From positions 1 through 32,655 of IMG/VR virus record IMGVR_UViG_3300047409_000273: DNA of 32,655 nucleotides; one strand, written 5' to 3'. Below are positions 13,275 through 28,509 of the stretch, in pieces. Source of the stretch: a virus. Position numbers and translations under genes: made by a program. The stretch's first letter is position 1. Each line of letters begins with the position of its first letter. The notes beneath the pieces were generated by a model. The model had not been told where the DNA came from. It saw nothing but the letters and a program-made list of their open reading frames with translations, and did no database searches.

Positions 13275-13283
13275 CTACTTGAC

Positions 13284-13985: not shown

Positions 13986-14000
13986 ACTTACCTCACTAAG

Positions 14001-14074: not shown

Positions 14075-14078
14075 GCGA

Positions 14079-14279: not shown

Positions 14280-14289
14280 GGTAACTTCC

Positions 14290-14475: not shown

Positions 14476-14524
14476 GTGCCTCGTTCCCCTTATTTACCCA
14501 CTAGCGACCTGAGTCGCCTAACCA

Positions 14525-14812: not shown

Positions 14813-14826
14813 AGAAAGGAATCCTC

Positions 14827-15225
14827 ATGACTTTTGACAATATTAAAGAGATACCGCGCACTCAGTGGAAGACTTATCCTTCCAGCGAAAAGCGAAGACT
14901 CAACTGCTGGGCTGGAGATACATACATCGTACAGCTTTTCAAAGAACCGAAGAACAGATTTCGCATTCAGGTTGGACGACATGATGAAGATGATTGCGTA
15001 AGCTGGGATGACATCCAGGCCTGTAAGGCTGCTATTGGTTTTGGAGATGTCGATGCCCTTGAGGTTTACCCTCGCGACAAAGACGTTGTAAACCTGGGCA
15101 ATTTTCGTCACCTTTGGATCTTAGATACACCGCTTGACTTCCCTTGGAGAGCTGATGGCAATATCGAACAATTTATGAAGCGTTACGTCAGCGACTATGC
15201 CGGTTGCGTAGGTTTGCCTCGTTAA
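14827..15225 (+). CDS. conserved phage protein (DUF7694-like), the only plus-strand gene
   Basis: This gene encodes 132 residues with AAAGGA 7 nt before ATG 14827. The motif series VSWDDIQACKAAIGFGDVDA, EVYPRDKDVVN, LGNFRHLWIL and LPR is a recurrent small phage family that I recall as DUF7694; the name is from memory. No enzymatic motif is evident. It is the sole gene transcribed against the rest of the window, sits head-to-head with DUF4326 and tail-to-tail with the gene at 15222-15449 (stop codons overlap by 3-4 bp). It may be a recent insertion or an early gene with its own control. Confidence 0.8.
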   Translation: MTFDNIKEIPRTQWKTYPSSEKRRLNCWAGDTYIVQLFKEPKNRFRIQVGRHDEDDCVSWDDIQACKAAIGFGDVDALEVYPRDKDVVNLGNFRHLWILDTPLDFPWRADGNIEQFMKRYVSDYAGCVGLPR

Positions 15226-15449
15226 GCTTCTACAACCCAATCTGGCATGTTCTGAAACAGATCTTCGCCAAAATGGTGAACACATGCTTCGCTATTGCAG
15301 ATAACCCACCAGTCAGATAATTCGGCTGTTGGACGTTGCTCGTAAAAGCTCTGATTGCAGTTATACACACTGACAGGACTACCGCACTGAATACAGGTAA
15401 GATTCTGACAGCAATCCGTGTGCCTGTCTGGAATGTCTAAATATGCCAT
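15222..15449 (-). CDS. small cysteine-rich protein, probable zinc ribbon
   Basis: This gene encodes 75 residues from ATG 15449, whose A is the last base of the upstream TGA. Cysteines are arranged as CCQNLTCIQCG, then YNC, CNSEAC and HHFGE, enough for a zinc-binding fold. Its end overlaps the end of the plus-strand gene, so the two converge. No family recognised. Confidence 0.65.
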   Translation of the reverse strand: MAYLDIPDRHTDCCQNLTCIQCGSPVSVYNCNQSFYEQRPTAELSDWWVICNSEACVHHFGEDLFQNMPDWVVEA

Positions 15450-15676
15450 CAAACGGCCTTGTCCGGCATCATTGTGAAAGCGGCATCGACTTCCCTGTAA
15501 TCGTCGTAAGCATCCTCATAAGAATCGAACATGGCTCTTGTCTCAAAAGTCGTTGTATTAAACACGCGCAAATCCCCGCCGCCGTTTCGCTTTAGAATAC
15601 CGCCCCACATCCAGGGCCAGCGCAAAACGCCATCCAAATTCTTAAGCTCGTGAATAAATTCGTCTAATGTCAGCAT
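15449..15676 (-). CDS. small hypothetical protein
   Basis: This gene encodes 75 residues, acidic and aromatic (GVLRWPWMWGGILKRNGG, DSYEDAYDDYREVDAAF). AGGAGCGAGG precedes ATG 15676, only 18 nt after the CCA end of tRNA-Ala, so it shares the tRNA transcript. No family recognised. Confidence 0.6.
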   Translation of the reverse strand: MLTLDEFIHELKNLDGVLRWPWMWGGILKRNGGGDLRVFNTTTFETRAMFDSYEDAYDDYREVDAAFTMMPDKAV

Positions 15677-15694
15677 TCCCTCGCTCCTGTTTTG

Positions 15695-15770
15695 TGGTGG
15701 AGAGTAAGGGACTCGAACCCTTAGCCTGTTGCTTGCAAAGCAACTGCTCTACCAATTGAGCTAACTCCCC
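15695..15770 (-). tRNA. tRNA-Ala (TGC anticodon), CCA encoded
   Basis: Acceptor arms GGGGAGT and ACTCTCC, anticodon stem GTTGC/GCAAC, loop TTTGCAA, T loop TTCGAGT, 3' end ACCA. Its first base directly follows the CCA of tRNA-Pro. Confidence 0.95.
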
Positions 15771-15846
15771 TGGTCGGAATAGCAAGTCTCGAACTCGCGG
15801 CCTCTAGCTCCCAAATCCAGCGCTCTACCTACTGAGCTATATTCCG
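15771..15846 (-). tRNA. tRNA-Pro (TGG anticodon), CCA encoded
   Basis: Acceptor arms CGGAATA and TATTCCG, loop TTTGGGA reading TGG, T loop TTCGAGA, 3' end ACCA. The anticodon stem (CTGGA/GCTAG) has one mismatch and one G-U pair. It abuts tRNA-Ala and tRNA-Ser with no spacer. Confidence 0.9.
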
Positions 15847-15936
15847 TGGCGGATAAGGTGGGAGTCGAACCCACAAGGGGTTTTCATACCCCCGATTGTT
15901 TAGCAAACAACTTCCTAACCAATTCGGATCTTATCC
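15847..15936 (-). tRNA. tRNA-Ser (GCT anticodon), CCA encoded
   Basis: It has acceptor arms GGATAAG and CTTATCC, anticodon loop TTGCTAA, a long variable arm (GGGGGTATGAAAACCCC), T loop TTCGACT and 3' end GCCA. A GTGCAC half-site and TATAAT lie just upstream. Confidence 0.95.
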
Positions 15937-15941
15937 AAGGT

Positions 15942-15953
15942 GTGCACATTATA
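15942..15953 (-). promoter_or_regulatory. possible internal promoter with GTGCAC half-site in the tRNA cluster
   Basis: The minus strand reads TATAAT immediately followed by GTGCAC between tRNA-Gly and tRNA-Ser. The -35 region (TCGTCA at 16 bp) is weak. TGTGCACATT matches one half of the 22-bp palindrome at 8 of 10 positions. Confidence 0.3.
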
Positions 15954-15960
15954 TCATATT

Positions 15961-16035
15961 TGGAGCGAATGACGAGACTCGAACTCGCAATCTCTTGTGT
16001 GGCGCACAAGTGCTCTACCATTGAGCTACATTCGC
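15961..16035 (-). tRNA. tRNA-Gly (GCC anticodon), CCA encoded
   Basis: Acceptor arms GCGAATG and CATTCGC, anticodon stem CTTGT/ACAAG, loop GCGCCAC reading GCC, T loop TTCGAGT, 3' end TCCA. Position 33 is C rather than the usual T, as in tRNA-Ile here. Confidence 0.92.
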
Positions 16036-16038
16036 ATT

Positions 16039-16113
16039 ACCCCCAACCAGGACTCGAACCTGGGACACGCGCCTTCGTAGGACGCTGCTCTAAATCCACT
16101 GAGCTACTGAGGG
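16039..16113 (-). tRNA. tRNA-Arg (ACG anticodon)
   Basis: Acceptor arms CCCTCAG and TTGGGGG, anticodon stem GCGTC/GGCGC, loop CTACGAA reading ACG, T stem CCAGG/CCTGG. CCA is not encoded. An ACG anticodon needs A-to-I editing by the host enzyme to read CGC and CGA. Confidence 0.92.
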
Positions 16114-16114
16114 A

Positions 16115-16190
16115 TGGCGCAACATGCGAGAATCGAACTCGCCCCTCTGCCGTGACAGGGCAGTGTTCTAAACCGATAAACTAATGTCGC
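16115..16190 (-). tRNA. tRNA-Asp (GTC anticodon), CCA encoded
   Basis: Acceptor arms GCGACAT and ATGTTGC, anticodon stem CTGCC/GGCAG, loop CTGTCAC, T loop TTCGATT, discriminator G and CCA. Confidence 0.95.
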
Positions 16191-16193
16191 AAA

Positions 16194-16269
16194 TGGCTGA
16201 AGTGGTAGGACTCGAACCTACGATAGGGAGCTTAACAGGCTCCTGCCTTACCAGCTTGGCTACACTCCA
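16194..16269 (-). tRNA. tRNA-Asn (GTT anticodon), CCA encoded
   Basis: Acceptor arms TGGAGTG and CACTTCA, anticodon stem GGAGC/GCTCC, loop CTGTTAA, T loop TTCGAGT, 3' end GCCA. It is the first of seven tRNAs in the compact group and lies 4 nt downstream of palindromic site C. Confidence 0.95.
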
Positions 16270-16273
16270 AAGC

Positions 16274-16295
16274 AAAGTGCACTTATGTGCACTTT
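16274..16295. repeat. 22-bp palindromic site C at the head of the tRNA cluster
   Basis: Perfect 8-bp arms AAAGTGCA and TGCACTTT flank CTTATG. On the minus strand a TATAAT box lies at 16304-16309, with a poor -35, placing the palindrome just after the predicted start of the tRNA transcript. This is where a repressor could block transcription. Confidence 0.8.
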
Positions 16296-16311
16296 GGTTC
16301 TCTATTATAGC

Positions 16312-16608
16312 TTAATATTCGAGCTTAATTGAGTTTCCATCAGGTAAATCGAAGTGACGCTCAGCAGGGCCACCCGTTTTGTTTTGGATAATCTCATGCT
16401 TCTTGGTGATTCCTTCATCGACCAGCTCTAATTGCTGTTCATCAATGCTCCAGGTTTCAGTCATCTTTCCATCGACTGAAGGAGCCTTAATGCCGTAGCG
16501 AACACAGCCGTTTAAGTGGAGGTCAACAGTTACAGCGATCCCTTCATAGCCACAGGTGATATCGCGCAATTTGGAACCTAAAGCATATTTATACTCAGCG
16601 GTTGGCAT
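16312..16608 (-). CDS. conserved phage protein
   Basis: This gene encodes 98 residues. ALGSKLRDITCGYEGIAV, then HLNGCVRYGI and WSIDEQQLELVDEG follow a pattern I associate with small phage proteins (G-x-x-x-D-x-x-T-G-x-x-G followed by LxGCxxYG). It is likely a small beta-barrel. It lies between tRNA-Thr and the main tRNA cluster, with GGAGAG upstream of its ATG. Function unknown. Confidence 0.75.
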   Translation of the reverse strand: MPTAEYKYALGSKLRDITCGYEGIAVTVDLHLNGCVRYGIKAPSVDGKMTETWSIDEQQLELVDEGITKKHEIIQNKTGGPAERHFDLPDGNSIKLEY

Positions 16609-16629
16609 TTTACTCTCTCCTTTGCTAAA

Positions 16630-16702
16630 AAGCTCCCGCTCAGAATCGAACTGAGAACTGATGCTTACAAGGCAGCTGTTTTACCATTAAACTAAGGGAG
16701 CT
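16630..16702 (-). tRNA. tRNA-Thr (TGT anticodon) beside the recombinase gene
   Basis: Acceptor arms AGCTCCC and GGGAGCT pair fully, loop CTTGTAA reads TGT, T stem CTCAG/CTGAG with TTCGATT. The anticodon stem (GCTGC/GCATC) has one mismatch. CCA is not encoded. It begins 7 nt after the stop codon of the tyrosine recombinase, the classic position of an integration site. Confidence 0.9.
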
Positions 16703-16709: not shown

Positions 16710-17615
16710 TTATACTATCATAAGTGCTCTGGGATGCGCTTTCAAGTATGCCTCTCTAAGCTTGTCTACAGCAACGTGTGTATATATTTGTGTGCTGCTT
16801 ATTTTGGCGTGTCCGAGTAATTCCTGTACAACTCGAATGTCCACATCATGATTGATTAAATGCGTTGCAAAGCTGTGCCTTAATGCGTGTGGATGCACTG
16901 GCTTGTTGATGTTTGCCTTTTTAGCTGAATTAAGAAGCATTCGACGTATGCTGCGTACATCCAGACGACCCCCTACATAGTTCATGAATACTGGCTCAGA
17001 GCCGGATCGCTCTATCAGATAACCGTCCGGTTTCGTAAGATATTCTAGCAAATGTGACATGGCTCTGCGACTCATAAAAGCGATTCGTTCCTGGCCTCCC
17101 TTGCCCATGACTCGCATCTCATTCTTCTCAAAATCTATCTGGTCAAAGTTAAGCCCGACCAGCTCCCCAACCCGAACGCCTGATGAAAACATAACATCGA
17201 TAATGGCGACATCGCGTTTGTTCAACACTCCTTCGCCCCTTGTCGCCTCAATAAGCTTATCGACCTCATCCGAGGATAAGAAGCAGGGCAAATGCCTGGG
17301 AGCCTTTGGTAAATGGAACTTCAGTGGCAAGTCGCTGTATCTGAAATATTGCTCTTTAATCAGAAAGCCGAAGAAAGTGCGCAAGGCTGAACCCTTACGG
17401 GAAATGCTTGTCTTGGATAGTGCTTGCTTATTGAGTTCGATAAGATACTGAGTTGCCAGCTTATCAAAGCCGACTTCTTGGTATTTCGGCAACCAGACTA
17501 AAAAGTCCTGTACGTCTTTCGTATAGGCTTTTAACGTATTGGTGGAGAGGTTGCGAGTGATGTCAAGATGATCCCTGAACGCCGCTGCACCTTCTTTGAA
17601 GAGCTGAGTAGACAC
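16710..17615 (-). CDS. XerC/D-like tyrosine recombinase (integrase)
   Basis: This gene encodes 301 residues. The N-terminal SAM-like domain covers about 1-100 and the catalytic domain the rest. All six catalytic residues are present: R148 (SGVRVGEL), K172 (MGKGGQER), H243 and R246 (HALRHSF), H269 (LLGHAKI) and Y278 (QIYTHV). The size and motif spacing match XerC/XerD-type enzymes rather than large phage integrases. The start is a GTG at 17615 with AGGA upstream. It overlaps the HNH gene by 85 bp and is followed by tRNA-Thr. It may integrate the genome, or resolve dimers or circularise it; which of these is unknown. Confidence 0.9.
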   Translation of the reverse strand: MSTQLFKEGAAAFRDHLDITRNLSTNTLKAYTKDVQDFLVWLPKYQEVGFDKLATQYLIELNKQALSKTSISRKGSALRTFFGFLIKEQYFRYSDLPLKFHLPKAPRHLPCFLSSDEVDKLIEATRGEGVLNKRDVAIIDVMFSSGVRVGELVGLNFDQIDFEKNEMRVMGKGGQERIAFMSRRAMSHLLEYLTKPDGYLIERSGSEPVFMNYVGGRLDVRSIRRMLLNSAKKANINKPVHPHALRHSFATHLINHDVDIRVVQELLGHAKISSTQIYTHVAVDKLREAYLKAHPRALMIV

Positions 17616-18193
17616 TTATCTGCTTTCCTGCTGTTACATGGGAAGCACATCGTCTGGAGATTGCTCATCCAATCCCCTCCGCCGGATGCGCGAGGAATGA
17701 TGTGATCGCAAGTCATAAGGACTTCGTTACCGTCAGGAGCTTGTGCATATAAATTAATGTGTCTATCACCGCCTGTGTCTTCAACGACGGAGAAATAACG
17801 ACCTTCAAGGCCGCACTCTACGCAATTAGTCCCTTTTTCGAGGAACACTTCCAGGCGATATAATCTTCGATATTCTATGAATTTATTTCTAACAGCCCAA
17901 TTACGGTCATTCCTGAGCATATCAAGTCCGAGCTGTAAGTCAATCCGATCAATCAACTTTTTAGGATGAACTCTCTGTTTATTGCTTCTCGGCATTCTTG
18001 GGAATACAGCTTTAAGCGCCTTCCCATAAGCTTGCATGGGGGTTTGACCATACGTGCTGAACATTAAGTTATTCTTAACATTCAGAAACGTCATGCGATA
18101 TTGATCCTTCACTTGAAGGGAATAAGTATCAAACCAACCAATCGAGGTTAGCTTGTCCTTCATGTCGTCTATTTGTGCATCTACAGGCTTCAT
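17531..18193 (-). CDS. HNH endonuclease
   Basis: This gene encodes 220 residues. A zinc-bound HNH motif is formed by CVEC (C124, C127), DHIIPRASGGG with H164, SNLQ with N178, and CFPC (C183, C186) followed by NSRKADK. The N-terminal 110 residues are basic and may bind DNA. It starts in a 4-nt ATGA overlap with the polymerase stop and its tail runs 85 bp into the recombinase gene. Such genes can be free-standing homing nucleases or packaging-associated nickases. The position between polymerase and recombinase, not near a terminase, favours homing, which is inference. Confidence 0.8.
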   Translation of the reverse strand: MKPVDAQIDDMKDKLTSIGWFDTYSLQVKDQYRMTFLNVKNNLMFSTYGQTPMQAYGKALKAVFPRMPRSNKQRVHPKKLIDRIDLQLGLDMLRNDRNWAVRNKFIEYRRLYRLEVFLEKGTNCVECGLEGRYFSVVEDTGGDRHINLYAQAPDGNEVLMTCDHIIPRASGGGDWMSNLQTMCFPCNSRKADKCLLSSSKKVQRRSGIILTSLATSPPIR

Positions 18194-20772
18194 GCGGCTT
18201 TATTGTACCATTCTGGAGGGATTGCGACAACGTGTTTCATCTCTTTGAGATTGCCGAGATTAGGGCCACATTCTACATCAGCCAGGATAGGAATCGGAAG
18301 CTTCAATCCAAACATCTCTTCTGCTGGGTTGGACTCCATGTAGAATTTAACAGCCGACATCGCCACTTCCAGATAATCATTGCGAACAGCAATAACAAGC
18401 GCGTCATGGATGAACATAATCGGCTTCATGGGAATCTCTTTGCCCCAACGCTTCATATCGCGCACCATGCGTCCTAAAGCCCAAAGTCCCCAATCCGAAG
18501 CAACACCCTGAATCGGAGCATTGATAGCCTGACGTTCTGCCATTGAGTAAGCGGAGAACTCTTTGGAGTCGATATCTGCCAAGTGACGTACACGGCCCAG
18601 CAAGCCACGAATCTGCTTGTCTCTTTTGGCTAAGCGAATACACTCATCATGCCAAGGCTCAAGGCCAGGATACAACCTGAAGAACTTGCGCCTGTACTCT
18701 TCTGCCTCTTCCAGTGTCAGCTCAAGCCCGTAATCCGTGTAAGCATATTCTCGGAAGCCCTTTGCTCGCATTCCGTAGATTAAGCCGAAGTTACAAGCTT
18801 TGGCTCTATAACGATAAAGCTTCATCTCTTTCTCAGGGAGTTTCATAAACTCTTCTAAAGAAATTCCCATAAGTGTTGAAGCAGTAACGCTATGCAAGTC
18901 TTCGCCATTGGCGTAAGCTTGTAACATACGAGGTTCATTCGCCGCTATCCCTGTGAAGCGAAGCTCAGCCTGAGATAAGTCACACTGAATCAGTGTCCAG
19001 CCTGGAGGGGCAACGAAAGTCTCCCGAAATAAAACAGCATTATCCCCGCGCTTAGGGAAGTTCTGAGCGTTTGGATCGGAAGAATTGGTTCGCAGTGTAT
19101 TCGTGCCGTGAATATTGTAACTAGGATAAATCCGTCCTTCGACAATATGTTGCCAGAAACCTGTCGGCAGCTCTTCGGGCTTCTTCTCTTCTGGAATAGG
19201 AGGACTGTAAGGTGTCCCAACGTAAGTCGTCCTTAGCTTCTGTATCTGCTGGTAAGCAGTCAGCTTTTCGACGTACTTAAAACCCTTCTCTTTGTACTCA
19301 GGTCTTCGTCCATCGACCATGAAGTCCTTGAAATACGGTAAGTGTTTCTTCGTAGAACAGCTTGGTACTCGCTCCGCAGGAGGGAGCAAACGGGTTGAAT
19401 CCGTCCATTGAACTGGCGTGAGGTCGAATCCTTGCTTGGTGAAAAGGATATCGCGCACAAAAGCGTCCCGACTGAATGCCAGTTCTTTTTTTTCTTCAAT
19501 ATGCTTGCGCTTAATGCCAGGAGGAGTATGCAGGATCAGATCACTGTAGAGTTTGGTTTCCTGCAAATTCAGGTTGTCGCCGAGTTGAGAAAGCTTCTCT
19601 GTATCGATGTCAATGCCATTTGTCTCAAGAGTTTCGGCAATTGCCACAAGCGCAGGGAGCTGAATCTTGTGGTAGACCCTAAAGTGTATCGGGTCTTTCT
19701 GAAGCTCTTTCTGGAGCGTCTTAGCGAGCCTGTAAGGGCCATCAACGTCACCGCAACCATATTTACGAATCTTATCCTTTGGGACATTCCACATATCGCT
19801 TTTATCGACTTCACGATTGAAGATATCCGCATATCCAGCAAGCTCTGGCACCCACCGTTTCACGCATTCATCCAGGTTTTTACGCTGCATGTTCTCATCG
19901 ACCATTGCGGCCATCAGAATTGTGTCGTACTTCCAGCCCTGCATGTGGATGCCCAGCTTCTTGTACATGTGGAAATCGTATTTCATGTTGTGGCCGATTT
20001 TGGGAATCAGCGGATCTTCCAGAAGAATCTTCGCCTGGGCGATGAGTTTGGTTGTGTCTGCACCTAACTCTGGATAGTATCCTGGGTGAACTGGGAATAT
20101 GACTGCCTTTCCAGGTTCACGACAGAATTGAATCGTGAAAGGGAATACGGTTGAGAGTGCTCGTTTGAGGCCAGTCGTCTCACTGTCGTGTGAGAGGATG
20201 TTTGGTTTGTCCTCAATCCAGTCGTCGAGGTTCGTTACCCATTGGTAGTCCAGCTCGTCGTCATCAAGAATGGGAGCATTAACGTTACAGCCTGAGTCCA
20301 GGAAACGCCGCAGGGAACGCATATCCGTTTCAAATGTGGACAGGTTCTGAGGGCTGCGTTGTACGAATCCCAGATCCAGACTGAAGAAAACTGATGGTAA
20401 TCCCTCATAATTAAATGCTTGTCCTCTTACCTCGCCGTTCTTGATCGCCTTGTTGGTGATTTGTCTCGTCGGAAGAGCGCCTAAAGTCAGGATGACACGC
20501 GGTGAATATTCTCCTAATCGCCGCATGAATTCTTCACGATGCTCTTTCAGGTGCTTTGTCTGACGGGCAACTGAGCTAAATGTAATCTCGTCCATGTGTG
20601 GCGCGACATTCATAAAGGCAAAGTCATTTCCTGAAAAGCCGTACTTGGAGACGATTCTGGAGAATAGCAATAAATTCTCATTCGAGATTGCCATCTTGCG
20701 TTTTGTCAAAAGCTCCGATGGAGGACTTAACAACACCAGAATCGGTGCGTTCTTGTTCCCTCTTTCAAACAT
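18190..20772 (-). CDS. family A DNA polymerase with N-terminal UDG-like domain
   Basis: This gene encodes 860 residues. Residues 1-165 resemble a uracil-DNA glycosylase-like domain (LVLLSPPSE, FMNVAP, VILTLGALPTRQI), a fusion known in some phage polymerases. The 3'-5' exonuclease shows D196/E198 (SHDSETTG), D266 (HNMKYDF) and D342/D344. The polymerase domain has motif A with D598 (CDLSQAELR), motif B with K658, F662 and Y666 (RAKACNFGLIYG), and motif C H789-D790-A791 (FIHDALV). Motif C normally reads HDE; here the glutamate is alanine. It lies in the replisome operon after the DnaB helicase with a 3-nt gap. Confidence 0.93.
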   Translation of the reverse strand: MFERGNKNAPILVLLSPPSELLTKRKMAISNENLLLFSRIVSKYGFSGNDFAFMNVAPHMDEITFSSVARQTKHLKEHREEFMRRLGEYSPRVILTLGALPTRQITNKAIKNGEVRGQAFNYEGLPSVFFSLDLGFVQRSPQNLSTFETDMRSLRRFLDSGCNVNAPILDDDELDYQWVTNLDDWIEDKPNILSHDSETTGLKRALSTVFPFTIQFCREPGKAVIFPVHPGYYPELGADTTKLIAQAKILLEDPLIPKIGHNMKYDFHMYKKLGIHMQGWKYDTILMAAMVDENMQRKNLDECVKRWVPELAGYADIFNREVDKSDMWNVPKDKIRKYGCGDVDGPYRLAKTLQKELQKDPIHFRVYHKIQLPALVAIAETLETNGIDIDTEKLSQLGDNLNLQETKLYSDLILHTPPGIKRKHIEEKKELAFSRDAFVRDILFTKQGFDLTPVQWTDSTRLLPPAERVPSCSTKKHLPYFKDFMVDGRRPEYKEKGFKYVEKLTAYQQIQKLRTTYVGTPYSPPIPEEKKPEELPTGFWQHIVEGRIYPSYNIHGTNTLRTNSSDPNAQNFPKRGDNAVLFRETFVAPPGWTLIQCDLSQAELRFTGIAANEPRMLQAYANGEDLHSVTASTLMGISLEEFMKLPEKEMKLYRYRAKACNFGLIYGMRAKGFREYAYTDYGLELTLEEAEEYRRKFFRLYPGLEPWHDECIRLAKRDKQIRGLLGRVRHLADIDSKEFSAYSMAERQAINAPIQGVASDWGLWALGRMVRDMKRWGKEIPMKPIMFIHDALVIAVRNDYLEVAMSAVKFYMESNPAEEMFGLKLPIPILADVECGPNLGNLKEMKHVVAIPPEWYNKAA

Positions 20773-20775: not shown

Positions 20776-22074
20776 TTATCCCCAGCCGTTTGCCTCTAAA
20801 CTGCGTCGAGCGTCATCCTCAGCCACACTTGCTAGCTCGTCATCCACTACTGTCCCGATGTAATCAAAGTTAGGAGGCTCAAATAAGTAATTGATAAGGA
20901 ATTTTATGTTCTCGCCTTCCCGCGCCTTAATGATAGAGATGGTTCTGCGTCTTCTGGATACTGGATCGTCGTTCGGAGGGTGAATCGCAATGACATTTGT
21001 GGCGATTTGTCCAACCTTGTCTGTCTCACCAATATCCTCTAGAGAAATTGATTGATCTGTAGAGCCAGCCTTTTGATTCGACTTAACACCTCTATTGAAC
21101 TGGTAAGTCAGCGTAAATGGCTTCTGAGTGCGTAAAGCAACATTCTTCAGCTCTTCCAGAACTTCTGCCTTCTCTTCAGTCCTGCTCTTACGCCCTCTCT
21201 GATTAGATGTTAAGAGATATGAAGCGTCGATATACACGGCATCAGCGTTTGTGCGCTCTACGGCGTTCTCAATATCCCCGATTGTCTTGCTCGTCTCTGA
21301 CATCATGAAGTAGAATGGGGCCATATCTCTATCGACCGTTGCGACGAAAGCTCTCATATCGTCCATCTGATAGTTGGAAATCAAACCGTCTTTGAAGCGG
21401 TCTGGATTGAGGCCATGCATTTTTGCCAGCATTCGAGTCACCATCTGAATGGTGCTCATTTCGAGGGTGACAAACAGAATAGAATTGCCAGCTAGCCAGT
21501 TCGCGTAGATGGATTGCAGCAATACATAGGACTTCCCCGTTGATGGACGACCTACAATCACATTCAGATCCCCAGCTTGCCAGCCACCCGTTAGCTGATC
21601 AAGGATCGGCCAGCCAGTCGGGAATCCCACTAAATCAGTGTATAAGGCTTGCCTCGCCCGTTCTAAAGCCTGAATCCCTGCTTGGGCAAATGATACAACG
21701 TCATCTAGGGACTGACCACTGGACAGTAAAGCCCGTAACTCCATTTGAAGCTGATTGAGTCGTGAATGGTCGGAAGAATTGCATGTGTCTCTTATGTTCT
21801 TTGCAATCAAATTCCCTTTACGTCGAACGTAATCTAATTTGGCTTTGTCGATGTAATAATCCGCGCTCTCAGGAAGCTCTTCTCGCAATATATAACCAGA
21901 CGCTGACAAGGCAGCCCTGGAAGGAAGCACACCATAATTGAGAACGTGATCGCGCATCGAATGATAAAGGCGCTGTGACTGATCCTCATCGAACCAGCTC
22001 GTATCCAGCGCACGAAAAAGTTGAAGGTTGCTATCGAGAGCAATCCTATTTAGAAGGTCTATGCTATTAGTCAA
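20776..22074 (-). CDS. DnaB-like replicative helicase
   Basis: This gene encodes 432 residues with a TTG start preceded by CAGGATG. The RecA-type motor shows Walker A GRPSTGKS (175-182), the catalytic glutamate E205 in FVTLEMS and Walker B D283 in AVYIDASYLL, with an N-terminal helical domain of about 140 residues as in T4 gp41/DnaB-family helicases. An arginine-rich RRRRTISIIKAREG segment near residue 380 fits DNA contact loops. It overlaps the putative loader gene by 8 bp. It would unwind DNA ahead of the polymerase and recruit the separate primase. Confidence 0.9.
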   Translation of the reverse strand: MTNSIDLLNRIALDSNLQLFRALDTSWFDEDQSQRLYHSMRDHVLNYGVLPSRAALSASGYILREELPESADYYIDKAKLDYVRRKGNLIAKNIRDTCNSSDHSRLNQLQMELRALLSSGQSLDDVVSFAQAGIQALERARQALYTDLVGFPTGWPILDQLTGGWQAGDLNVIVGRPSTGKSYVLLQSIYANWLAGNSILFVTLEMSTIQMVTRMLAKMHGLNPDRFKDGLISNYQMDDMRAFVATVDRDMAPFYFMMSETSKTIGDIENAVERTNADAVYIDASYLLTSNQRGRKSRTEEKAEVLEELKNVALRTQKPFTLTYQFNRGVKSNQKAGSTDQSISLEDIGETDKVGQIATNVIAIHPPNDDPVSRRRRTISIIKAREGENIKFLINYLFEPPNFDYIGTVVDDELASVAEDDARRSLEANGWG

Positions 22075-22621: not shown

Positions 22622-24601
22622 TTACTCACTCTCACTAAACCGCTTGAAACCAGGAGTCAATTCTTCCGCAAAAAACTCTTTGAGATCTTTTATGCCTTCC
22701 TGATCACCACTGGCCTCCAGTATAGCACACTCTTTATCGAATTTTAGCAAGTCCATTCTACGGTCGTAATAGCTACCGTTGTCAAAGGTCATGGAGCTGT
22801 ACACGAAACTCAAGTCACCCTTCTTGGCTTTAAATTCCTTCATAAAGACTTCCTGAAAGAGTTCTTCGGTGTAATATGCATAGTCAGGGATGTATTTCTC
22901 TATCCATGAAAGTGCACACGATTGCATTTCACTCACAGACATTCCATTCCAGTCTGTCTTAACTTGTGAAACTGGCTCTATAATAGAAAACGCTTTCTGT
23001 GGCATCTCAGAGGCTCGTAAAGAGGCTAAACGTTTTTCCTCCTTGTCAGATTCCTGCTTCAGTAAATAAATCGAATTACGGGCTTGCTGAAGCTCTTTCT
23101 GAATGGATCTGCGTTGCATCTCCAATCGCTCTTTCTCTTCCTCTAGATTTTTCAATCCTTGATGATAATCGGCTCGTGCTTTATCGTAATCGCAGTCCGA
23201 TTGCATTTTCTTCGTTGTGAGTTCCTGAACAGCCGCTTCGCCCATCCCTTTGGCACGGAGTCTGTCCGCGAACAAGTCAGCCGAGCTGAGCCTTGAGTTG
23301 AGATCCTTCTGGAAGGCACTCAGGAAATTCTTTTTGAACGTGAGGATGAATCCGAGATCGGGGAACTCAGGGTATTGGATTTCGGGCTGTCCCTTCTGTT
23401 CACGCCCACGATTGATGTACTCGAAGTGCTGAACTTTGATTGTGTCCCACTTGGATACAGCGAATTCCAGGAAGTCGAGGAAGTCACCTTGTGGGAACTC
23501 AGTATTCTGGATGGCTCGCTTCAGTTGACCCATAACCTTTTTGGCTGGGTAAGCGTAGATACGGTTAGGATATTGCTCTCTAGCCAGGAGAGAAAAGAAC
23601 TCTACTGCTTTTGGAGAGCTGACACGCATGGTCTGACCGTCTTCAATATAAGCAGAAGTGCGGCTAAGGATACGCTCACGACGCTCAATCGATGTCTCTG
23701 ACTGCTTTGTTGCCTTTCTGCCTTTGCGGGGGAAGGGTAGGGTTGGGGGAGTATCTCCGTAAGGATAAACCTCTTTTTTACTTGTAGAAATAAACAAAGA
23801 TCCCACTTCGTTAGAAGGGGGTAGCTCGCTATTGTTATTTATTAGTGTTTTTACTAAGTGTTCTTTATTAGTGTTATGGGTTATCACATTGATAACTGTT
23901 TGGTTATCACTTTGATAACCTTTTGGTTGTATATTTGATAACCCTTTAGTTATCACTTTTAGGGTCGAGAGGTTATCACTGAAGTCATAATCATCAGCCT
24001 CTTCAGTGAAGTCCATAGGCACGATATTGTTCATTTTCAGACCTCCACTTGTCTCTTTAACCCATTGATTCATTGCATCAAAATCGAGCATGTAAACGGT
24101 GCCAAAACTGACAGAATCCTTTCGGATGACTTTGCCGTGCTTTTCTCGTTTGATGAGTCCTTTCTGAAGGAGCTGCTTGATTGTCCTGCTCAGATTAGTT
24201 TTCCACTTGATATCGCAGCCTTCATCGACATTGAACACGCCGTTCAAGAAATGGCTCTGTGGGATCACCTCAAAGACTTTGAAGAACCCGATGGTTCGGT
24301 TGAAGATATACTTCATAACCGTCTCCTGCGAGGGAGTCAGTTTTGTGTATACCCATCGTTCTAAAGATGCTCTGAGGGCATTCTGGCACTTGAACTTGCC
24401 GTCTTTTGCCTTTAAAGCTACCTCCTCGAAGCCAGAGACAAACTTGCCACTCATCTTCGGGATCGAAAAATTGCCCTTCCCTAAGTAAGAAATCCCCATA
24501 CCAACGTATTCCGTGGTATAATCGGAATTACATTTTATTCCTTTCTTATAGTTTATATTCCGCTCACCTACAAGGGCGGATTTTTTTTGTTCTGTTTTCA
24601 T
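22622..24601 (-). CDS. replication initiator (lambda O-like) carrying the origin inside its gene
   Basis: This gene encodes 659 residues from ATG 24601, preceded by GAGGG; the frame is open to a TTG at 24643, but that part is the upstream terminator. Residues about 85-175 form a winged-helix domain (TPSQETVMKYIFNRTIGFF, RTIKQLLQKGLIKREKHG). Residues about 200-260 are low in complexity because the DNA there holds iterons and AT-rich 13-mers. A long coiled coil covers about 475-540 (KNLEEEKERLEMQRRSIQKE). The C-terminal region is acidic and helical. As in phage lambda O, the protein would bind repeats in its own gene and recruit the loader and helicase encoded next. Confidence 0.75.
   Translation of the reverse strand: MKTEQKKSALVGERNINYKKGIKCNSDYTTEYVGMGISYLGKGNFSIPKMSGKFVSGFEEVALKAKDGKFKCQNALRASLERWVYTKLTPSQETVMKYIFNRTIGFFKVFEVIPQSHFLNGVFNVDEGCDIKWKTNLSRTIKQLLQKGLIKREKHGKVIRKDSVSFGTVYMLDFDAMNQWVKETSGGLKMNNIVPMDFTEEADDYDFSDNLSTLKVITKGLSNIQPKGYQSDNQTVINVITHNTNKEHLVKTLINNNSELPPSNEVGSLFISTSKKEVYPYGDTPPTLPFPRKGRKATKQSETSIERRERILSRTSAYIEDGQTMRVSSPKAVEFFSLLAREQYPNRIYAYPAKKVMGQLKRAIQNTEFPQGDFLDFLEFAVSKWDTIKVQHFEYINRGREQKGQPEIQYPEFPDLGFILTFKKNFLSAFQKDLNSRLSSADLFADRLRAKGMGEAAVQELTTKKMQSDCDYDKARADYHQGLKNLEEEKERLEMQRRSIQKELQQARNSIYLLKQESDKEEKRLASLRASEMPQKAFSIIEPVSQVKTDWNGMSVSEMQSCALSWIEKYIPDYAYYTEELFQEVFMKEFKAKKGDLSFVYSSMTFDNGSYYDRRMDLLKFDKECAILEASGDQEGIKDLKEFFAEELTPGFKRFSESE
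22909..22930. repeat. 22-bp palindrome-like site E inside the initiator gene
   Basis: The plus strand reads AAAGTGCA, CACGAT, TGCATTTC. It matches 19 of 20 positions of site D (read on the minus strand) from the AAAGTGCA arm onward, although it lies in coding sequence (SCALSW codons). The second arm is imperfect. Confidence 0.55.
23838..23978. other. predicted origin of replication: three AT-rich 13-mers plus seven iterons
   Basis: Three tandem 13-bp units begin at 23838, 23851 and 23864 (TTTATTAGTGTTT, TTACTAAGTGTTC, TTTATTAGTGTTA). They are followed by seven GTTATCA sequences in both orientations: 23880-23886, 23890-23896, 23903-23909, 23913-23919, 23936-23942, 23949-23955 and 23972-23978. 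The pair at 23902-23920 is a perfect palindrome, GGTTATCA-CTT-TGATAACC. The repeats fall in different reading frames, so they do not arise from a repeated peptide. A melting region next to iterons within the initiator gene is the layout of lambda and plasmid origins. Confidence 0.75.
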
Positions 24602-24619
24602 ATTACCCTCATTCCCACC

Positions 24620-24654
24620 AAAAAAATAGACCCCAATTTTCAAGGGGGTCTATT
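24620..24654 (-). terminator. strong Rho-independent terminator of the Ycf46-like operon
   Basis: The minus strand reads AATAGACCCC, a 10-nt loop, GGGGTCTATT, then TTTTT. The 10-bp perfect stem starts 9 nt after the stop codon of the 24664-24960 gene. The initiator ATG (24601) lies just beyond it. Confidence 0.9.
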
Positions 24655-24663
24655 CATTATAAC

Positions 24664-24960
24664 TTAGATTTCCGTCAATTTTGGGATTTTCCCTTGAAGC
24701 CGTAAAGCGTCTAGGTGAGCCACTTCTGCCCTCTTCGCATCCTCATAATCAGTGAAGAAAAGGAGCTTGTCATTCTCATCCGTCAGGAATGTCTCCAGGT
24801 GGATGAAGTAGACATAAAACTTCTGCTGTTCTTCAGACCAGACGATATCAGAAGTGCGCTTGATTTTGGCTTTCCCAAGCTGCTTGAAGTCGAGGAGATT
24901 CGGACGCTCTAAGCCAGAGATTGCGCCGCCCTGGTGGACGGTAATCACTTGCTTGACCAT
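24664..24960 (-). CDS. conserved phage protein, last gene of the Ycf46-like operon
   Basis: This gene encodes 98 residues starting in a TAATG overlap with the DUF2997 gene. The sequence HQGGAISGLERPNLLDF, GKAKIKRTSDIVW and QKFYVYFI is distinctive, and the C-terminal half is helical (YEDAKRAEVAHLDALRLQG). No catalytic motif is evident. Its coupling to the DUF2997 gene suggests it works with that module. Function unknown. Confidence 0.75.
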   Translation of the reverse strand: MVKQVITVHQGGAISGLERPNLLDFKQLGKAKIKRTSDIVWSEEQQKFYVYFIHLETFLTDENDKLLFFTDYEDAKRAEVAHLDALRLQGKIPKLTEI

Positions 24961-25163
24961 TACGCTGTCTCAGCTTCTACTTCAGCCTCTTTCTTGCCAC
25001 CGCCTTCGTAGTACTCATCAGTCAAGGTGCGATTCTTAACTGAACCAAGAGACATGAGGTTTTCCAGTCCTTTGGTAGCGTTCAGACAGGCATCGCCTTT
25101 GAATCCTTCAGGCGTGAACTGAGGACGACCCGCACGGTCGATTTTGACTTTAATCTTAGGCAT
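24960..25163 (-). CDS. DUF2997 family protein
   Basis: This gene encodes 67 residues with GGAGG before ATG 25163. KIKVKIDRAGRPQFTPEGFKG, then CLNATKGLENLMSLG and LTDEYYEGG match the DUF2997 pattern: a short strand pair, G-F-x-G-x-x-C and a helix ending before LTxEYY. In cyanobacteria I recall this family next to DUF1257 and Ycf46-type genes, which is also the order here. The acidic tail (EAEVEAETA) is variable. No biochemical role is known. Confidence 0.75.
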   Translation of the reverse strand: MPKIKVKIDRAGRPQFTPEGFKGDACLNATKGLENLMSLGSVKNRTLTDEYYEGGGKKEAEVEAETA

Positions 25164-25178
25164 AGAGCCTCCTTCAGG

Positions 25179-25691
25179 TTAAGCCGCTTCTACTTCAAAC
25201 TCGAACTCGATATCACCGTTCGCATCGACGGTAATCTCACTGGTTTCGCATCCGTTGCGTAAAGCATAGTTGATAATGGCGTATTTGCTATAGCCAGTCA
25301 TCAATTTGCCCAGGCTGAAAACGTTCTGGTACTCGTCATTGTCAGCAGGACGTGCAGTGCTCAACTGAGATGCTATAGAGCCATTCCAGAAGTCTGTAAT
25401 CAGGTTGTAGTGACTCAGTTTGTCTGGGTTTTTTTCAAGATCTTCGAGCTTAATGGCTTCGTTTTTCTCGTCCATTGGCTGAACACCGATATCATATTTC
25501 GCGTTAGGCAATGCGATAGTGAATGAGCAAGCTTTGGCATAAGCGCGGGTTTGATCGCTGCTGAAAAGACGTGGGCCTTTTTTTGCGATCATGTAAATGT
25601 TCGTGCCGCCTTCGCGAAGCTCTTCTAATGCAGCTTCCAAAGCGTCGATATCTCTGATTGGAACATCACTAATTAATGAAACGTGACTCAC
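25179..25691 (-). CDS. DUF1257 (Ycf35-like) protein
   Basis: This gene encodes 170 residues from a GTG at 25691 with AAGGAGAG upstream. The N terminus MSHVSL...IRDIDALEAALEEL, the central YDIG, then YNLITDFWNG and the C-terminal LMTGYSKYAIINYALRNG followed by ITVDANGDIEFEF match the DUF1257/Ycf35 layout. The family is found in plastids, cyanobacteria and some phages; its biochemical function is not established to my knowledge. It is 15 nt upstream of the DUF2997 gene and downstream of the AAA+ gene, forming a set. Confidence 0.75.
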   Translation of the reverse strand: MSHVSLISDVPIRDIDALEAALEELREGGTNIYMIAKKGPRLFSSDQTRAYAKACSFTIALPNAKYDIGVQPMDEKNEAIKLEDLEKNPDKLSHYNLITDFWNGSIASQLSTARPADNDEYQNVFSLGKLMTGYSKYAIINYALRNGCETSEITVDANGDIEFEFEVEAA

Positions 25692-25715
25692 TCGATCTCT
25701 CCTTTGAGGTTGTTT

Positions 25716-26396
25716 TTATAGGGTTATATTTCTTTTACGCTTGCGTTCAAGAATTTCAACGGGTTTCCCTTCAACGGTGATTACTTTAACGCCAGTTTCT
25801 GCAATATCGTACTTTGCTTTTTCGATAATGTCCACCGAAAGGAAATCACTATTGATCGTATCATCAATCTGTCCAAAAAACTGAGGAGCGATGAGTTTCT
25901 GTTCCTTGACAAAGTTAGGACTGAGAATATCAAAATAACCGATTGCGAGATAGGGAAGCCCGTAGTCTCCCTTGAAGCTTATCTTGTGACGAGGGCCAGT
26001 CGAGCGTGTTCGGATCATCACATAAGACTGATGGGACATCCCACCGAACGTCTTGTTGTCAATCCTGTATTGAAGCCTGAGTATTACGCCATCTGGCACC
26101 ACATAGGATTCTTCAGTCCAGCCTAAAAGCTGGTTGTTGACTCGTGGGTTGCGATTAGCAGATGAAATGAAATCCATCGGCTGAGAATCGATGAGTCTAA
26201 CAGTGCTTCCATCGTCGCTCTTATGCTTCATCTTTGCGATTGTACGAAGCCTTGCCCATGTTTGCTGGAGCTGGTTTCGCTCAGTCCAGTTCAAGGGGCA
26301 GCTGGGATGGTTCACATAATAGTCAGAAGCAAATAGAGTCACTGTTTGCAGAGACTCTGTTCCAGCCACTAGCATTAGGAGCGTTGTGGTAATCAC
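25716..26396 (-). CDS. hypothetical protein of the Ycf46-like operon
   Basis: This gene encodes 226 residues from a GTG at 26396 in a GTGA overlap with the AAA+ gene, with AAGGAG 8 nt upstream. The chain alternates strands and loops (DGVILRLQYRIDNKTFGG, SYVMIRTRSTGPRHKISF), suggesting a beta-rich fold, and ends in a basic ERKRKRN. An N-terminal hydrophobic stretch (TTLLMLVAG) is too short for a clear signal. Tight coupling with the ATPase suggests a substrate or adaptor role; the family is not recognised. Confidence 0.7.
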   Translation of the reverse strand: MITTTLLMLVAGTESLQTVTLFASDYYVNHPSCPLNWTERNQLQQTWARLRTIAKMKHKSDDGSTVRLIDSQPMDFISSANRNPRVNNQLLGWTEESYVVPDGVILRLQYRIDNKTFGGMSHQSYVMIRTRSTGPRHKISFKGDYGLPYLAIGYFDILSPNFVKEQKLIAPQFFGQIDDTINSDFLSVDIIEKAKYDIAETGVKVITVEGKPVEILERKRKRNITL

Positions 26397-28135
26397 TTAG
26401 TAGGCTCCTTGGCCTTTCTGCGTCGAGAAGCAGCTAAAGTAGCGATATTCCCTGGTGTCGCTTCCAGTTCTTCTTCGTCTTCGACTGCTTCTTCCGGCTC
26501 CATCTCGAAGATGCTTGCAGGACGGGCGACGCGATTTGCCCATTCATGCATTCTCACAAACTGCTCTGGATAAGCAGCTGACAGAGGACGCATTTTGTTG
26601 ACCTGGATGGCAATAGACTCGCCAGTAATTTGTTTCTTGCCGTTGATGAAAGAATCCTTTACGGCCTCTTTGACAGCAGCTTCAATTTCAGCTGGGACAT
26701 AACCGCGAGTCGCAGAAACAGCCGCATCCATGTGACTTACACGATCTGGATCTTGATGGCGTTTGGCAAGATGAATCCGCAGAATCGCAAGCCGTTCGCT
26801 GGGTGTCGGTAAGCCGACATAGAAATTCTCATCCAAACGTTGCTTACGGAGCAGTTCAGAGGGCAGATTATCCACGTTGTTCGCAGCAAGCGCCCAGAAG
26901 ATTGGGTCTTTGTTGTCTGACATGAACGCCAGGATCATACCCAAGACACGTCTGGAAACCGTACCACCGCCAGCTTCCTCACCTGAGCCACTGAAGAACT
27001 TATCAATCTCATCAATAAAGACGATACAAGGTGCCAGGGCAACGATAATTGAAAACACAGTACGAACCATGCCTTCGGATTCGCCGACATACTTTTTGAG
27101 AATACGGGAGATATCCAGGCGCACAACAGGGATGCCTAGGATAGAGCCGATGACTCTCGCCATCTGCGTCTTCCCCGTTCCTGGAAAGCCAAATAAGCCC
27201 ACGCCTTTTGGTTTATCAACACCATAAGCCAATGCTTGCTCGGAGAAACACTTGGAAACACCGTAGCAATATTCTTTGAGGTGATCCATACCACCAATCT
27301 GACTGGCATCAATCGGATCAAGGAGTTCTAAAATCTGTGTACGCTTGATGATTTCAGTCTTACGTTTCAGGACGCGAGAAGCAACGGTATCTTCATTGAG
27401 AGGTTCAGAGCCAATCAACATCTGCTTCAAAGAGACAGATAGAGCGCTGCGCAGCTCGAAACCCGTCATCGCCGCTGATGCTTTTACAATCGGAGCTGTG
27501 GTGTTGAGGTAGTTAATCTTGAAATCACTCAAAACTGACTTGATGATACTGTCGCGCTCGGTTGGCCCTGGAGGATCATAGTCTAGGAAGACAATAAAAT
27601 CAGCAAGCTCAGGTGGAATTGCAACACTATGAGGAATGACAAGAATGACACAACTAGCGCAATACTGGAATTCCTCTGCGATATGCAGGAGTGCAGTCTT
27701 TGGGATCGAGTCATCGAAAGCTTCCTGGGGCCAAACAAAGTTGTAAACACCGACTGGAGCACCGTTGTCGAAACCCTTGGCAAGTTTCTTCTCTTCGCCC
27801 GTCAGCTTGCCCGTCATCAGCTGTAAAACTTTACTCAGACCCTTGACGTTGACTGTCTGTTTTTTGTTGGCTTCTGGCTTGTCGTTGAACGCATTGCGCT
27901 CATTGAATTCCATGTCAGTCGGAGATTCTATCACCAGACCGTTCAACATATCCCATTGGCCGTAGCTCAAGCGCTCTCTGTCGTTGGCTTTAGCCTTCTT
28001 CTTGTTTGCACCCACTGTGTATTGGCGAATCGCAGTCGAAGCTTCGTAAGGCTCACGAGTCCGAGTCACGATTAAGCCTGTCCCTGCTTCACGCAGAATA
28101 GACAGCTCATTGATAAACGCATCTGAGACTGACAT
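26393..28135 (-). CDS. Ycf46-like AAA+ ATPase
   Basis: This gene encodes 580 residues. Residues 1-240 form an inactive ATPase-like domain in which CVILVIPHSVAIPPELADFI and FLDYDPPGPTERDSI match the Ycf46 N-terminal half. The active AAA module has Walker A GFPGTGKT (316-323), the RLDISRILKKYVGESEG pore/second-region motif, Walker B FIDEID (373-378) and the NVDNLPSELLRKQRLDE sensor and arginine-finger region near 420-436. It starts in a TAATG overlap with the previous gene. AAA+ rings of this class remodel proteins; the target is unknown. Co-occurrence with DUF1257 and DUF2997 points to a conserved module. Confidence 0.85.
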   Translation of the reverse strand: MSVSDAFINELSILREAGTGLIVTRTREPYEASTAIRQYTVGANKKKAKANDRERLSYGQWDMLNGLVIESPTDMEFNERNAFNDKPEANKKQTVNVKGLSKVLQLMTGKLTGEEKKLAKGFDNGAPVGVYNFVWPQEAFDDSIPKTALLHIAEEFQYCASCVILVIPHSVAIPPELADFIVFLDYDPPGPTERDSIIKSVLSDFKINYLNTTAPIVKASAAMTGFELRSALSVSLKQMLIGSEPLNEDTVASRVLKRKTEIIKRTQILELLDPIDASQIGGMDHLKEYCYGVSKCFSEQALAYGVDKPKGVGLFGFPGTGKTQMARVIGSILGIPVVRLDISRILKKYVGESEGMVRTVFSIIVALAPCIVFIDEIDKFFSGSGEEAGGGTVSRRVLGMILAFMSDNKDPIFWALAANNVDNLPSELLRKQRLDENFYVGLPTPSERLAILRIHLAKRHQDPDRVSHMDAAVSATRGYVPAEIEAAVKEAVKDSFINGKKQITGESIAIQVNKMRPLSAAYPEQFVRMHEWANRVARPASIFEMEPEEAVEDEEELEATPGNIATLAASRRRKAKEPTK

Positions 28136-28398
28136 TAAACCTCCCGCTTAATAAGCTCCTGAAACTTCATATCCATTTTTAGCACTTTGTCAGGCTGTCC
28201 TTTGCGGCAGAGTTTAACATACACCGAGTCGGCTTCAGCAGCCATCATTAATGCTTTTTTATTCTTACGGATGAATGCTTTTAAACGCTTCTTGTCCTGC
28301 GGCTTAGCCCCTGTTTTCTTTTTAATGGGCTTGGAAGGAGTCTCAGGTTCCAAATTCTGTATATTTTCGAGCAAAGATTTATTCTTGTCGAATACCAT
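28135..28398 (-). CDS. small basic hypothetical protein heading the Ycf46-like operon
   Basis: This gene encodes 87 residues from ATG 28398. It is lysine-rich (PSKPIKKKTGAKPQDKKRLK, FIRKNKKALMMAAEADS). The promoter at 28401-28429 predicts a start near 28394, inside the first codons, so either a leaderless-type or an internal start codon is used, or another promoter drives this gene. Its TAA overlaps the ATPase ATG. Function unknown. Confidence 0.6.
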   Translation of the reverse strand: MVFDKNKSLLENIQNLEPETPSKPIKKKTGAKPQDKKRLKAFIRKNKKALMMAAEADSVYVKLCRKGQPDKVLKMDMKFQELIKREV

Positions 28399-28400: not shown

Positions 28401-28429
28401 AGCATACCTATCGCTTTTTAAACTGTCAA
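28401..28429 (-). promoter_or_regulatory. promoter of the Ycf46-like operon overlapping palindromic site D
   Basis: TTGACA (28424-28429), 17 bp and TATGCT (28401-28406) are on the minus strand. The sequence TTGACAGTTT is identical to that of the promoter at 2047-2075. The 22-bp palindrome overlaps the -35 box, so a bound protein would block or recruit polymerase. Confidence 0.6.
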
Positions 28430-28447
28430 TGCAAACGTGTGCACTTT
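28426..28447. repeat. 22-bp palindromic site D at the Ycf46-like operon promoter
   Basis: The plus strand reads TCAATGCA, AACGTG, TGCACTTT. One arm is intact; the other keeps only TGCA with a degenerate outer part where it overlaps TTGACA. It lies between the terminator at 28448-28476 and the promoter. Confidence 0.65.
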
Positions 28448-28476
28448 GCAAAAAAGTGGAGCCATTACAGCTCCAC
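28448..28476 (-). terminator. Rho-independent terminator after the GH16-like gene
   Basis: The minus strand reads GTGGAGC, a 7-nt loop, GCTCCAC, then six T. The 7-bp GC-rich stem starts 33 nt after the stop codon. It insulates the tail/lysis genes from the Ycf46-like operon promoter that follows immediately. Confidence 0.9.
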
Positions 28477-28509
28477 CTTCAATTATAGCTTTGATTTCCG
28501 TAAATTCGA

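Follow-up and report, generated by a model that had tools for sequence, protein, structure and literature searches.

Ycf46 and Ycf35 (DUF1257) are retained in red plastids and cyanobacteria without a known biochemical function, and both belong to the plastid genes whose pattern of loss in red algae is linked to habitat (PMC5940233). In cyanobacteria ycf46 lies away from the duf2997-ycf35-fed7 cluster (PMC4284462), and Ycf46, which is stress-induced, is tied to stress response and carbon use, not to replication (PMC7496141); the literature searched describes no function for DUF1257 or DUF2997. Because the genes lie apart, the link between Ycf46 and Ycf35 is not obvious in plastids and cyanobacteria. 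In the viral record IMGVR_UViG_3300047409_000273, the whole 32,655-nucleotide stretch of which is called the window here, all three families are encoded in one cassette next to genes of DNA replication:

28440-28482, minus strand: terminator-like hairpin closing the upstream gene (-18.5 kcal/mol, z -3.6, 1 of 200 shuffles equally good)
28430-28450, unstranded: operator-like palindrome TGCAAACGTGTGCACTTTGCA, directly adjoining the -35 box (exact match)
28401-28429, minus strand: sigma-70-type promoter TTGACA-17-TATGCT (consensus scan, 10 of 12)
28135-28398, minus strand: lysine-rich orphan protein, 87 aa, occurring in the window only
26393-28135, minus strand: Ycf46-like AAA+ ATPase, 580 aa (PF00004, phrog_8638, hhalign of N and C parts, tree)
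25716-26396, minus strand: P3, 226 aa, rich in beta structure, candidate for adaptor or substrate (profile matches in 20 loci)
25179-25691, minus strand: DUF1257/Ycf35 family protein, 170 aa (hhalign 99.6%, E 1.5e-24)
24960-25163, minus strand: DUF2997 protein, 67 aa, carrying the cysteine that is invariant in its family (PF11211, 8.8e-10, exceeding the cut-off)
24664-24960, minus strand: P6, 98 aa, conserved cassette member (phrog_38408, 1.7e-15; seen in 24 loci)
24612-24662, minus strand: intrinsic terminator separating P6 from the initiator gene (-16.1 kcal/mol, z -2.1, followed by TTTTTTT)
22622-24601, minus strand: REPw, lambda-O-like replication initiator with winged HTH, ATG start at 24601 (Aeromonas phage relative)
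22067-22621, minus strand: 184-aa protein between initiator and helicase (position; no family match)
20776-22074, minus strand: DnaB-like replicative helicase (phrog_19, 1.4e-48)
18190-20772, minus strand: DNA polymerase of type I, PolA (phrog_17, 4.7e-121)

The original prediction had placed six ORFs at 24664-28398, with a promoter, an operator-like site and a terminator, and all of these were located, the ORFs on the minus strand. That the genes form one coupled module is borne out by their joins, which are overlaps of 1 nt (87-aa gene/ATPase; DUF2997/P6) and 4 nt (ATPase/P3) and gaps of 24 nt (P3/DUF1257) and 15 nt (DUF1257/DUF2997), and by the fixed order of the core genes in related loci. 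The count of six has to be revised to five conserved genes plus an orphan, since the 87-aa protein matches nothing in Pfam, PHROG or NCBIfam and its gene is absent from every other locus found. The TTGACA-17-TATGCT element is the best minus-strand match of the promoter scan; promoter-like matches are no commoner than chance (10 observed, 9.7 expected), so the promoter call rests on its position and the abutting palindrome. The palindrome occurs in five places in the window (the derived pattern gives 7 rows, against 0.17 expected), one operator-like site lying directly upstream of the primase gene; control of the module is therefore probably not exclusive, and the description "separately regulated" fails in the strict sense. 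The hairpin at 28440-28482 insulates the module from the gene upstream.

The ATPase matches the AAA family (PF00004, E=6.6e-29) and, over residues 4-545, the phage AAA proteins of phrog_8638 (E 5.9e-107). Its N-domain aligns with that of the cyanobacterial Ycf46 type (hhalign 99.6%, E=2.3e-24, 217 columns, without P-loop), its AAA part aligns with the Ycf46-type counterpart (E=1.9e-93), and a C-terminal W..A..AS tail (WANRVARPAS here) is present in 13 of 19 members of the phage clade and 15 of 16 of the Ycf46 type; with the PF00004 match, these features sustain the assignment as Ycf46-like. A Ycf46 orthologue it is not, for the phage ATPases form a separate, supported clade (18 rows, support 97/84) beside Ycf46 and not inside it, in a tree whose cyanobacterial rows were identified as Ycf46 from length and family rather than from names. 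The window ATPase, used as a single query protein, had no match among viral contigs; relatives there were recovered only with an alignment as query. Walker A (GFPGTGKT), Walker B (IVFIDEID) and arginine finger (RKQRLD) are complete, and the N-domain matches the second half of the AAA domain weakly, in register (hhalign 40%, E 3e-4), which favours a remodeller in which a catalytically dead AAA-like domain would precede one active domain of the Cdc48/FtsH type. Such an ATPase would be expected to assemble into a hexamer and to pull on proteins, threading them by means of a hydrophobic pore loop. The loop reads YVG in the window and mostly LVG, FIG, WVG or LIG across the clade; classical unfoldases have an aromatic pore residue, which most relatives lack, a point against this reading. 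The AAA+ remodelling machine proposed originally is kept as the likeliest biochemistry.

P3, the DUF1257 and DUF2997 proteins and P6 are predicted to be dedicated partners of the ATPase. P3 profile matches always lie directly after the ATPase, whereas P3 alone as a tblastn query finds no phage relative. The same slot is filled by P3, DUF3150 or C288 in three virus classes, families with no detectable mutual homology, an alternation of sequences that fits a swappable adaptor; P3 is thus the best candidate for an adaptor or substrate, as its early nomination for that role had suggested. This alternation favours a remodeller, as does a cyanobacterial plasmid version of the system that adjoins grpE and hsp70. 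Structural comparison assigned neither of two modelled partners: P3 (pLDDT 64, pTM 0.64, a low-confidence model) reaches at best Z 3.4 against solved structures (rmsd 4.8, 84 aligned) and DUF1257 (pLDDT 94.7) Z 4.8 (rmsd 3.1, 79 aligned), with no Z >= 5 in the Foldseek top 1000, which is not proof of a new fold. The two DUF families named in the original prediction both stand. The DUF2997 protein passes the PF11211 cut-off by itself (38.7 vs 24.1 bits, profile 1-47 of 47), with a cysteine invariant in 50 of 50 sequences, the window included. The DUF1257 protein alone falls below that of PF06868 (13.0 vs 22.2 bits, E=0.13), which is matched by 5 of the 9 proteins of the first DUF1257 alignment (two wrong rows included; best 3.9e-9), and is assigned through the alignment of the phage profile with cellular DUF1257 listed above, over 126 columns and the whole length. 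Both DUF alignments are too variable for pattern scans. A beta-hairpin shared by DUF2997, P6 and DUF1257 is hinted at by hhalign (E 2e-5 and 1.5e-4, probability 52-76%), too weakly to be used.

The order ATPase-P3-DUF1257-DUF2997-P6 is identical in all 20 P3-bearing loci and holds down to about 26-37% ATPase identity, while inserted surrounding genes vary. The initiator gene comes next in 19 of the 20; the exception, L058, ends shortly past P6. A scan anchored on DnaB yielded 25 loci with the initiator gene, of which 21 have all five genes, 2 are partial and 2 have too little upstream sequence, so that the complete cassette lies upstream in 21 of 23 assessable loci (with about 13 contigs not previously in the set); there is no clear loss where upstream sequence suffices, save the ambiguous L224. 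An initiator-anchored scan returned previously known loci and none new. Scattering of the genes in relatives, which would have spoken against a module, is thus not seen in the phage lineage; it is seen in cyanobacteria, where ycf46 lies apart from the other genes (co-occurrence in cells covered 12 genomes). Initiator, DnaB and PolA follow the cassette, which is thus as stable as the polymerase, and the nearest relatives of the window PolA come from the same module-bearing phages. This constant coupling to the replication genes was missed by the original prediction. The initiator of the Aeromonas phage relative matches Phage_rep_O at 5.6e-5, that of the window at just 0.12. The 184-aa protein is, by its position, a possible helicase loader; helicase loading by the ATPase itself was judged less likely, because this separate gene lies between initiator and DnaB.

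Tentatively, at slightly less than even confidence, we regard the five genes as encoding one AAA+ remodelling complex that acts outside the virion and belongs to the core of the replication region in a lineage of large tailed phages; its likeliest task would be the reshaping or disassembly of a replication assembly. Its target would be an assembly in phage genome replication, for example the complex of the neighbouring lambda-O-like initiator with DnaB, and its action would resemble that of DnaK-DnaJ-GrpE and ClpX for lambda and Mu. The fixed order, the 21 complete DnaB-anchored loci, the polymerases, the lambda-O-like initiator of the Aeromonas relative and the operator-like site upstream of the primase gene argue for this; the terminator between module and initiator gene, the stress and carbon roles of cyanobacterial Ycf46 (PMC7496141) and the viruses outside the P3 class, where DnaB or primase lies near the ATPase in about one in eight, close to chance by our own rough estimate, argue against it. 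Action on the virion, one of the two targets first suggested, is disfavoured, since the related ATPase of mycobacteriophage Corndog was found in infected-cell extracts only and not in purified particles (PMC4351075).

The other suggested target, the host, is less probable, though it is the strongest of the alternatives: the same complex might act on host proteins early in infection, in take-over or in disarming a defence or stress protein, as would suit a relative made during infection and absent from the virion, the stress induction of the cyanobacterial relatives (PMC7496141), and the occurrence of related systems on numerous plasmids and in classes of viruses that show no replication linkage. 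The PADLOC matches to IetA of the IetAS anti-phage defence cover nothing beyond the generic AAA domain, and the module proteins include neither an IetS-type protease nor a subtilase. Host-directed phage genes are usually patchy, unlike this cassette, which is strictly co-retained with the phage's own replication genes. Rather improbable is an enzyme-maturation or redox device, in which the ATPase with DUF1257 and DUF2997 would insert or repair a metal, Fe-S or radical cofactor by way of the invariant DUF2997 cysteine; the fed7 ferredoxin neighbours related systems (PMC4284462) and radical-SAM/Fer4_12 proteins adjoin the ATPase on a Rhodococcus plasmid and in the virus locus L030, but such neighbours are just a handful overall, and neither the window nor the annotated P3-class loci have one beside the module. 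Adjacency to the replication genes may also simply be inherited in one lineage, as the related DnaB and PolA of all P3-class phages imply descent from one ancestor; a functional module of unrelated purpose, held there by frozen gene order, is nevertheless improbable given that the order survives so much ATPase divergence among varying inserted genes, with no clear loss beyond L224. A phage proteasome, in which the ATPase would feed unfolded proteins to a 177-aa threonine peptidase (12146-12679) that resembles BPH (PDB 5ovs, E 4.4e-10; 5ovu, 5.2e-5) and has Thr directly after Met1, is highly improbable and was rejected as a general mechanism, because searches with the protein and with the Pfam proteasome model find the peptidase in none of the 20 further records that bear the module, and the ATPase ends in ASRRRKAKEPTK, without an HbYX docking tail.

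If the replication-linked remodeller is real, the replication region of an entire phage lineage gains a core, unexplained element. A further step, possible but doubtful, is that one ancient AAA+ remodelling machine has Ycf46, Ycf35 and DUF2997 as its subunits and became obligatory in the replication apparatus of this lineage, where P3 would be its dedicated adaptor; it would then be a phage replication chaperone of a new kind. The tightly coupled cassette speaks strongly, on genetic grounds, for a single machine and names two new partners, P3 and P6, and the Rhizobium, Pseudomonas and Rhodobacter phages offer a tractable system for finding the substrate.

Among known systems, Ycf46 (Synechocystis Slr0374; cyanobacteria and red plastids) shares with the phage ATPase the two-domain layout, homologous N-domain, AAA signature and C-terminal tail, but sits in a stress operon and not in this five-gene cassette, and is not known near replication genes. 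The cyanobacterial duf2997-ycf35-fed7 cluster (PMC4284462) has both DUF families as neighbours, as in the phage, whose cassette lacks the ferredoxin and adds the ATPase, P3 and P6; additional loops distinguish the DUF1257 proteins of the phages from cyanobacterial Ycf35. The Corndog-cluster mycobacteriophages have a related AAA-ATPase with a partner gene immediately after it, but that partner shows no detectable relation to P3 and no DUF1257 or DUF2997 was found nearby. PHROGs groups the ATPase by itself as phrog_8638 and does not describe the cassette. The closest counterparts are in Rhizobium phages L338C and RHph_I4, Aeromonas phage HJ05, Pseudomonas phages PA_L9 and SM1 and Rhodobacter phage RcTiptonus (ATPase identity about 26-37%), which lack the 87-aa gene and carry the five-gene cassette in the same order, adjoining the initiator and DnaB or PolA, with intergenic gaps that in the Rhizobium phages are longer than in the window.

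The main genes of the 32,655-base virus record lie on the minus strand, among them six tightly packed open reading frames (overlaps of 1, 4 and 1 nt; gaps of 24 and 15 nt), which are bracketed by putative control signals:

28398-24664, minus strand: open reading frames of, in order, 87 aa, 580 aa (ATPase), 226 aa (P3), 170 aa (DUF1257), 67 aa (DUF2997) and 98 aa (P6)
28429-28401: promoter TTGACA-17-TATGCT, at the start of the module unit
28430-28450: 21-bp palindrome, adjoining the module promoter
28440-28482: second hairpin, separating the module from the upstream gene
24612-24662: hairpin and T7, at the module's closing end

Promoter-like matches are no commoner in the module stretch than by chance (10, versus 9.7 in shuffles), and so the promoter call rests on position. 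The palindrome recurs at five window sites (2078-2105, 9245-9265, 16271-16298, 22906-22926 and 28430-28450), with a consensus, derived from three of them, of about CAAAGTGCA-N6-TGCACTTTG. It is fused to two TTGACA promoters (of a 453-aa gene and of the module), and is also found upstream of primase, beside tRNA-Asn and within the initiator gene; these are probably sites for one phage regulator or initiator. Twelve tRNA genes are located at 10348-16702, and an integrase gene (16710-17615) adjoins tRNA-Thr.

The ATPase belongs to the classical AAA proteins (PF00004, 6.6e-29; phrog_8638, 5.9e-107); its ATPase motifs are complete, and its pore loop, YVG, is hydrophobic. Cyanobacterial Ycf46-type proteins of ~500 aa have an N-terminal domain homologous to its own (99.6%, E=2.3e-24), its AAA part matches theirs (E=1.9e-93), and a C-terminal W..A..AS tail is common to both; these comparison proteins, nameless in the sequence collection, were equated with Ycf46 by length and family. 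Because a tree of 72 AAA domains sets the phage ATPases (all 17 sampled P3-bearing loci and locus L086) in their own clade (18 rows, support 97/84) apart from the Ycf46 clade, the window ATPase is classed by sequence as Ycf46-like, not Ycf46 itself. The N-domain, with a weak match to AAA (40%), may be a dead AAA domain. The DUF2997 protein is over the Pfam cut-off; the window DUF1257 (Ycf35 family) protein alone is under it (13.0 versus 22.2 bits needed), and an alignment of DUF1257 from P3-bearing phages matches cellular DUF1257 proteins (99.6%, E=1.5e-24). The DUF1257 model is confident (pLDDT 94.7) and alpha/beta, with no clear relative in the PDB (best Z 4.8, rmsd 3.1, 79 aligned); that of P3 is beta-rich, of moderate confidence (pLDDT 64; best match Z 3.4, rmsd 4.8, 84 aligned). 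Neither predicted structure demonstrates a new fold.

Among 92 loci with a clear ATPase match, window included, P3 is present in 20, and all 20 have the order ATPase-P3-DUF1257-DUF2997-P6; they include Rhizobium L338C and RHph_I4, Aeromonas HJ05, Agrobacterium JP1, Rhodobacter RcTiptonus and Pseudomonas PA_L9. A Rhizobium phage-like plasmid is annotated with the identical five-gene arrangement. Rhizobium bangladeshense plasmid p7 (L173; 109 kb), with tail genes and the entire cassette, is probably a phage-plasmid. The 87-aa gene was found in no ATPase-bearing locus except the window. The genes after the cassette are the initiator, then DnaB and PolA. In a second scan, anchored on DnaB so that loci were not picked by the module itself, all five module genes lie upstream in 21 of 25 loci with an initiator gene and related DnaB (~13 contigs new, the others overlapping the first set); two are partial (L228, cut by the locus end, and L224, an unclear case) and two have too little upstream sequence. 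Since the named phages with the best-matching polymerases are again those that carry the module, one phage lineage keeps the cassette like a core gene. Rhodobacter phages carrying it have been described as apparently virulent (PMC8601537). Shorter AAA proteins (~400 aa), without DUF1257/DUF2997, occur in phages L008-L012, L230 and L231, most of which have the gene not far upstream of DnaB, at the cassette's position.

Other viruses have the ATPase without P3, either with DUF1257 and/or DUF2997 and in some cases P6 (20 loci), or with none of these (52 loci). Two families then often occupy the position immediately behind the ATPase: DUF3150 (12 distinct sequences) and a 288-aa family (23 distinct sequences). 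They show no detectable relatedness to each other or to P3; such alternation is as expected of exchangeable adaptors or substrates. DUF3150-family proteins lie near a Ycf46-like ATPase and DUF1257 in L056, L069, L092, L034 and L022, a second virus class. On plasmids, ATPase relatives adjoin grpE-hsp70 (Pseudanabaena), a radical-SAM protein (Rhodococcus) or a WGR protein (Anabaena), and IncC plasmids carry a more distant AAA relative (E. coli L174, 5533-6996, a gene common on IncC plasmids, flanked by genes without names; E about 4e-29 over 57% of the query). Pseudanabaena galeata pPg_01 (L180) has the single run grpE, hsp70-like, DUF1257, SMC-like ATPase, unknown, DUF2997, Ycf46-like ATPase, WD40 protein. 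Radical-SAM (NrdG-like, Fer4_12) proteins or a C-x3-C-x2-C motif are encoded near ATPase or DUF1257/DUF2997 genes in L176 (Rhodococcus aetherivorans plasmid), L030, L039 and L060.

The cassette is real and conserved; the literature searched gives no function for DUF1257 or DUF2997. The Ycf46 of Synechocystis, Slr0374, is encoded in an operon that stress induces, and without it an extracellular carbonic anhydrase activity falls (PMC7496141). In cyanobacteria, duf2997, ycf35 and fed7 cluster together (PMC4284462), with ycf46 located away from them. Both ycf35 and ycf46 belong to the red-algal plastid genes whose loss follows a marine/freshwater pattern (PMC5940233). The related ATPase gp96 of Corndog was detected in infected-cell extracts alone, and not in particles (PMC4351075). 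The worth of the cassette is that it would join Ycf46, Ycf35 and DUF2997 in one machine, for which the phages carrying it are a tractable test system.

The best reading is that the cassette product would be a hexameric protein remodeller, the ATPase threading substrate proteins and P3, DUF1257, DUF2997 and P6 possibly serving as adaptors. Its target probably lies in replication, because the module is inseparable from DnaB, PolA and a lambda-O-like initiator (Phage_rep_O, E=5.6e-5 for that of the Aeromonas phage) and the operator-like palindrome recurs upstream of primase. Alternatively, the remodeller may serve host take-over; the cassette may encode a redox or cofactor device, in keeping with the invariant DUF2997 cysteine; or frozen gene order may account for the replication adjacency. 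Proteasome partnership of the ATPase with a 177-aa protein (12146-12679, minus strand) resembling the bacterial proteasome homologue BPH (PDB 5ovs, E 4.4e-10) does not hold as a general mechanism, this peptidase being present in 0 of 20 other records; it has Thr immediately after Met1 and is rare among phages (4 weak tblastn matches). In lambda and Mu, initiator complexes are remodelled by host chaperones and ClpX; as a replication remodeller, the cassette may be this phage lineage's own supply of such an activity for its initiator complexes.
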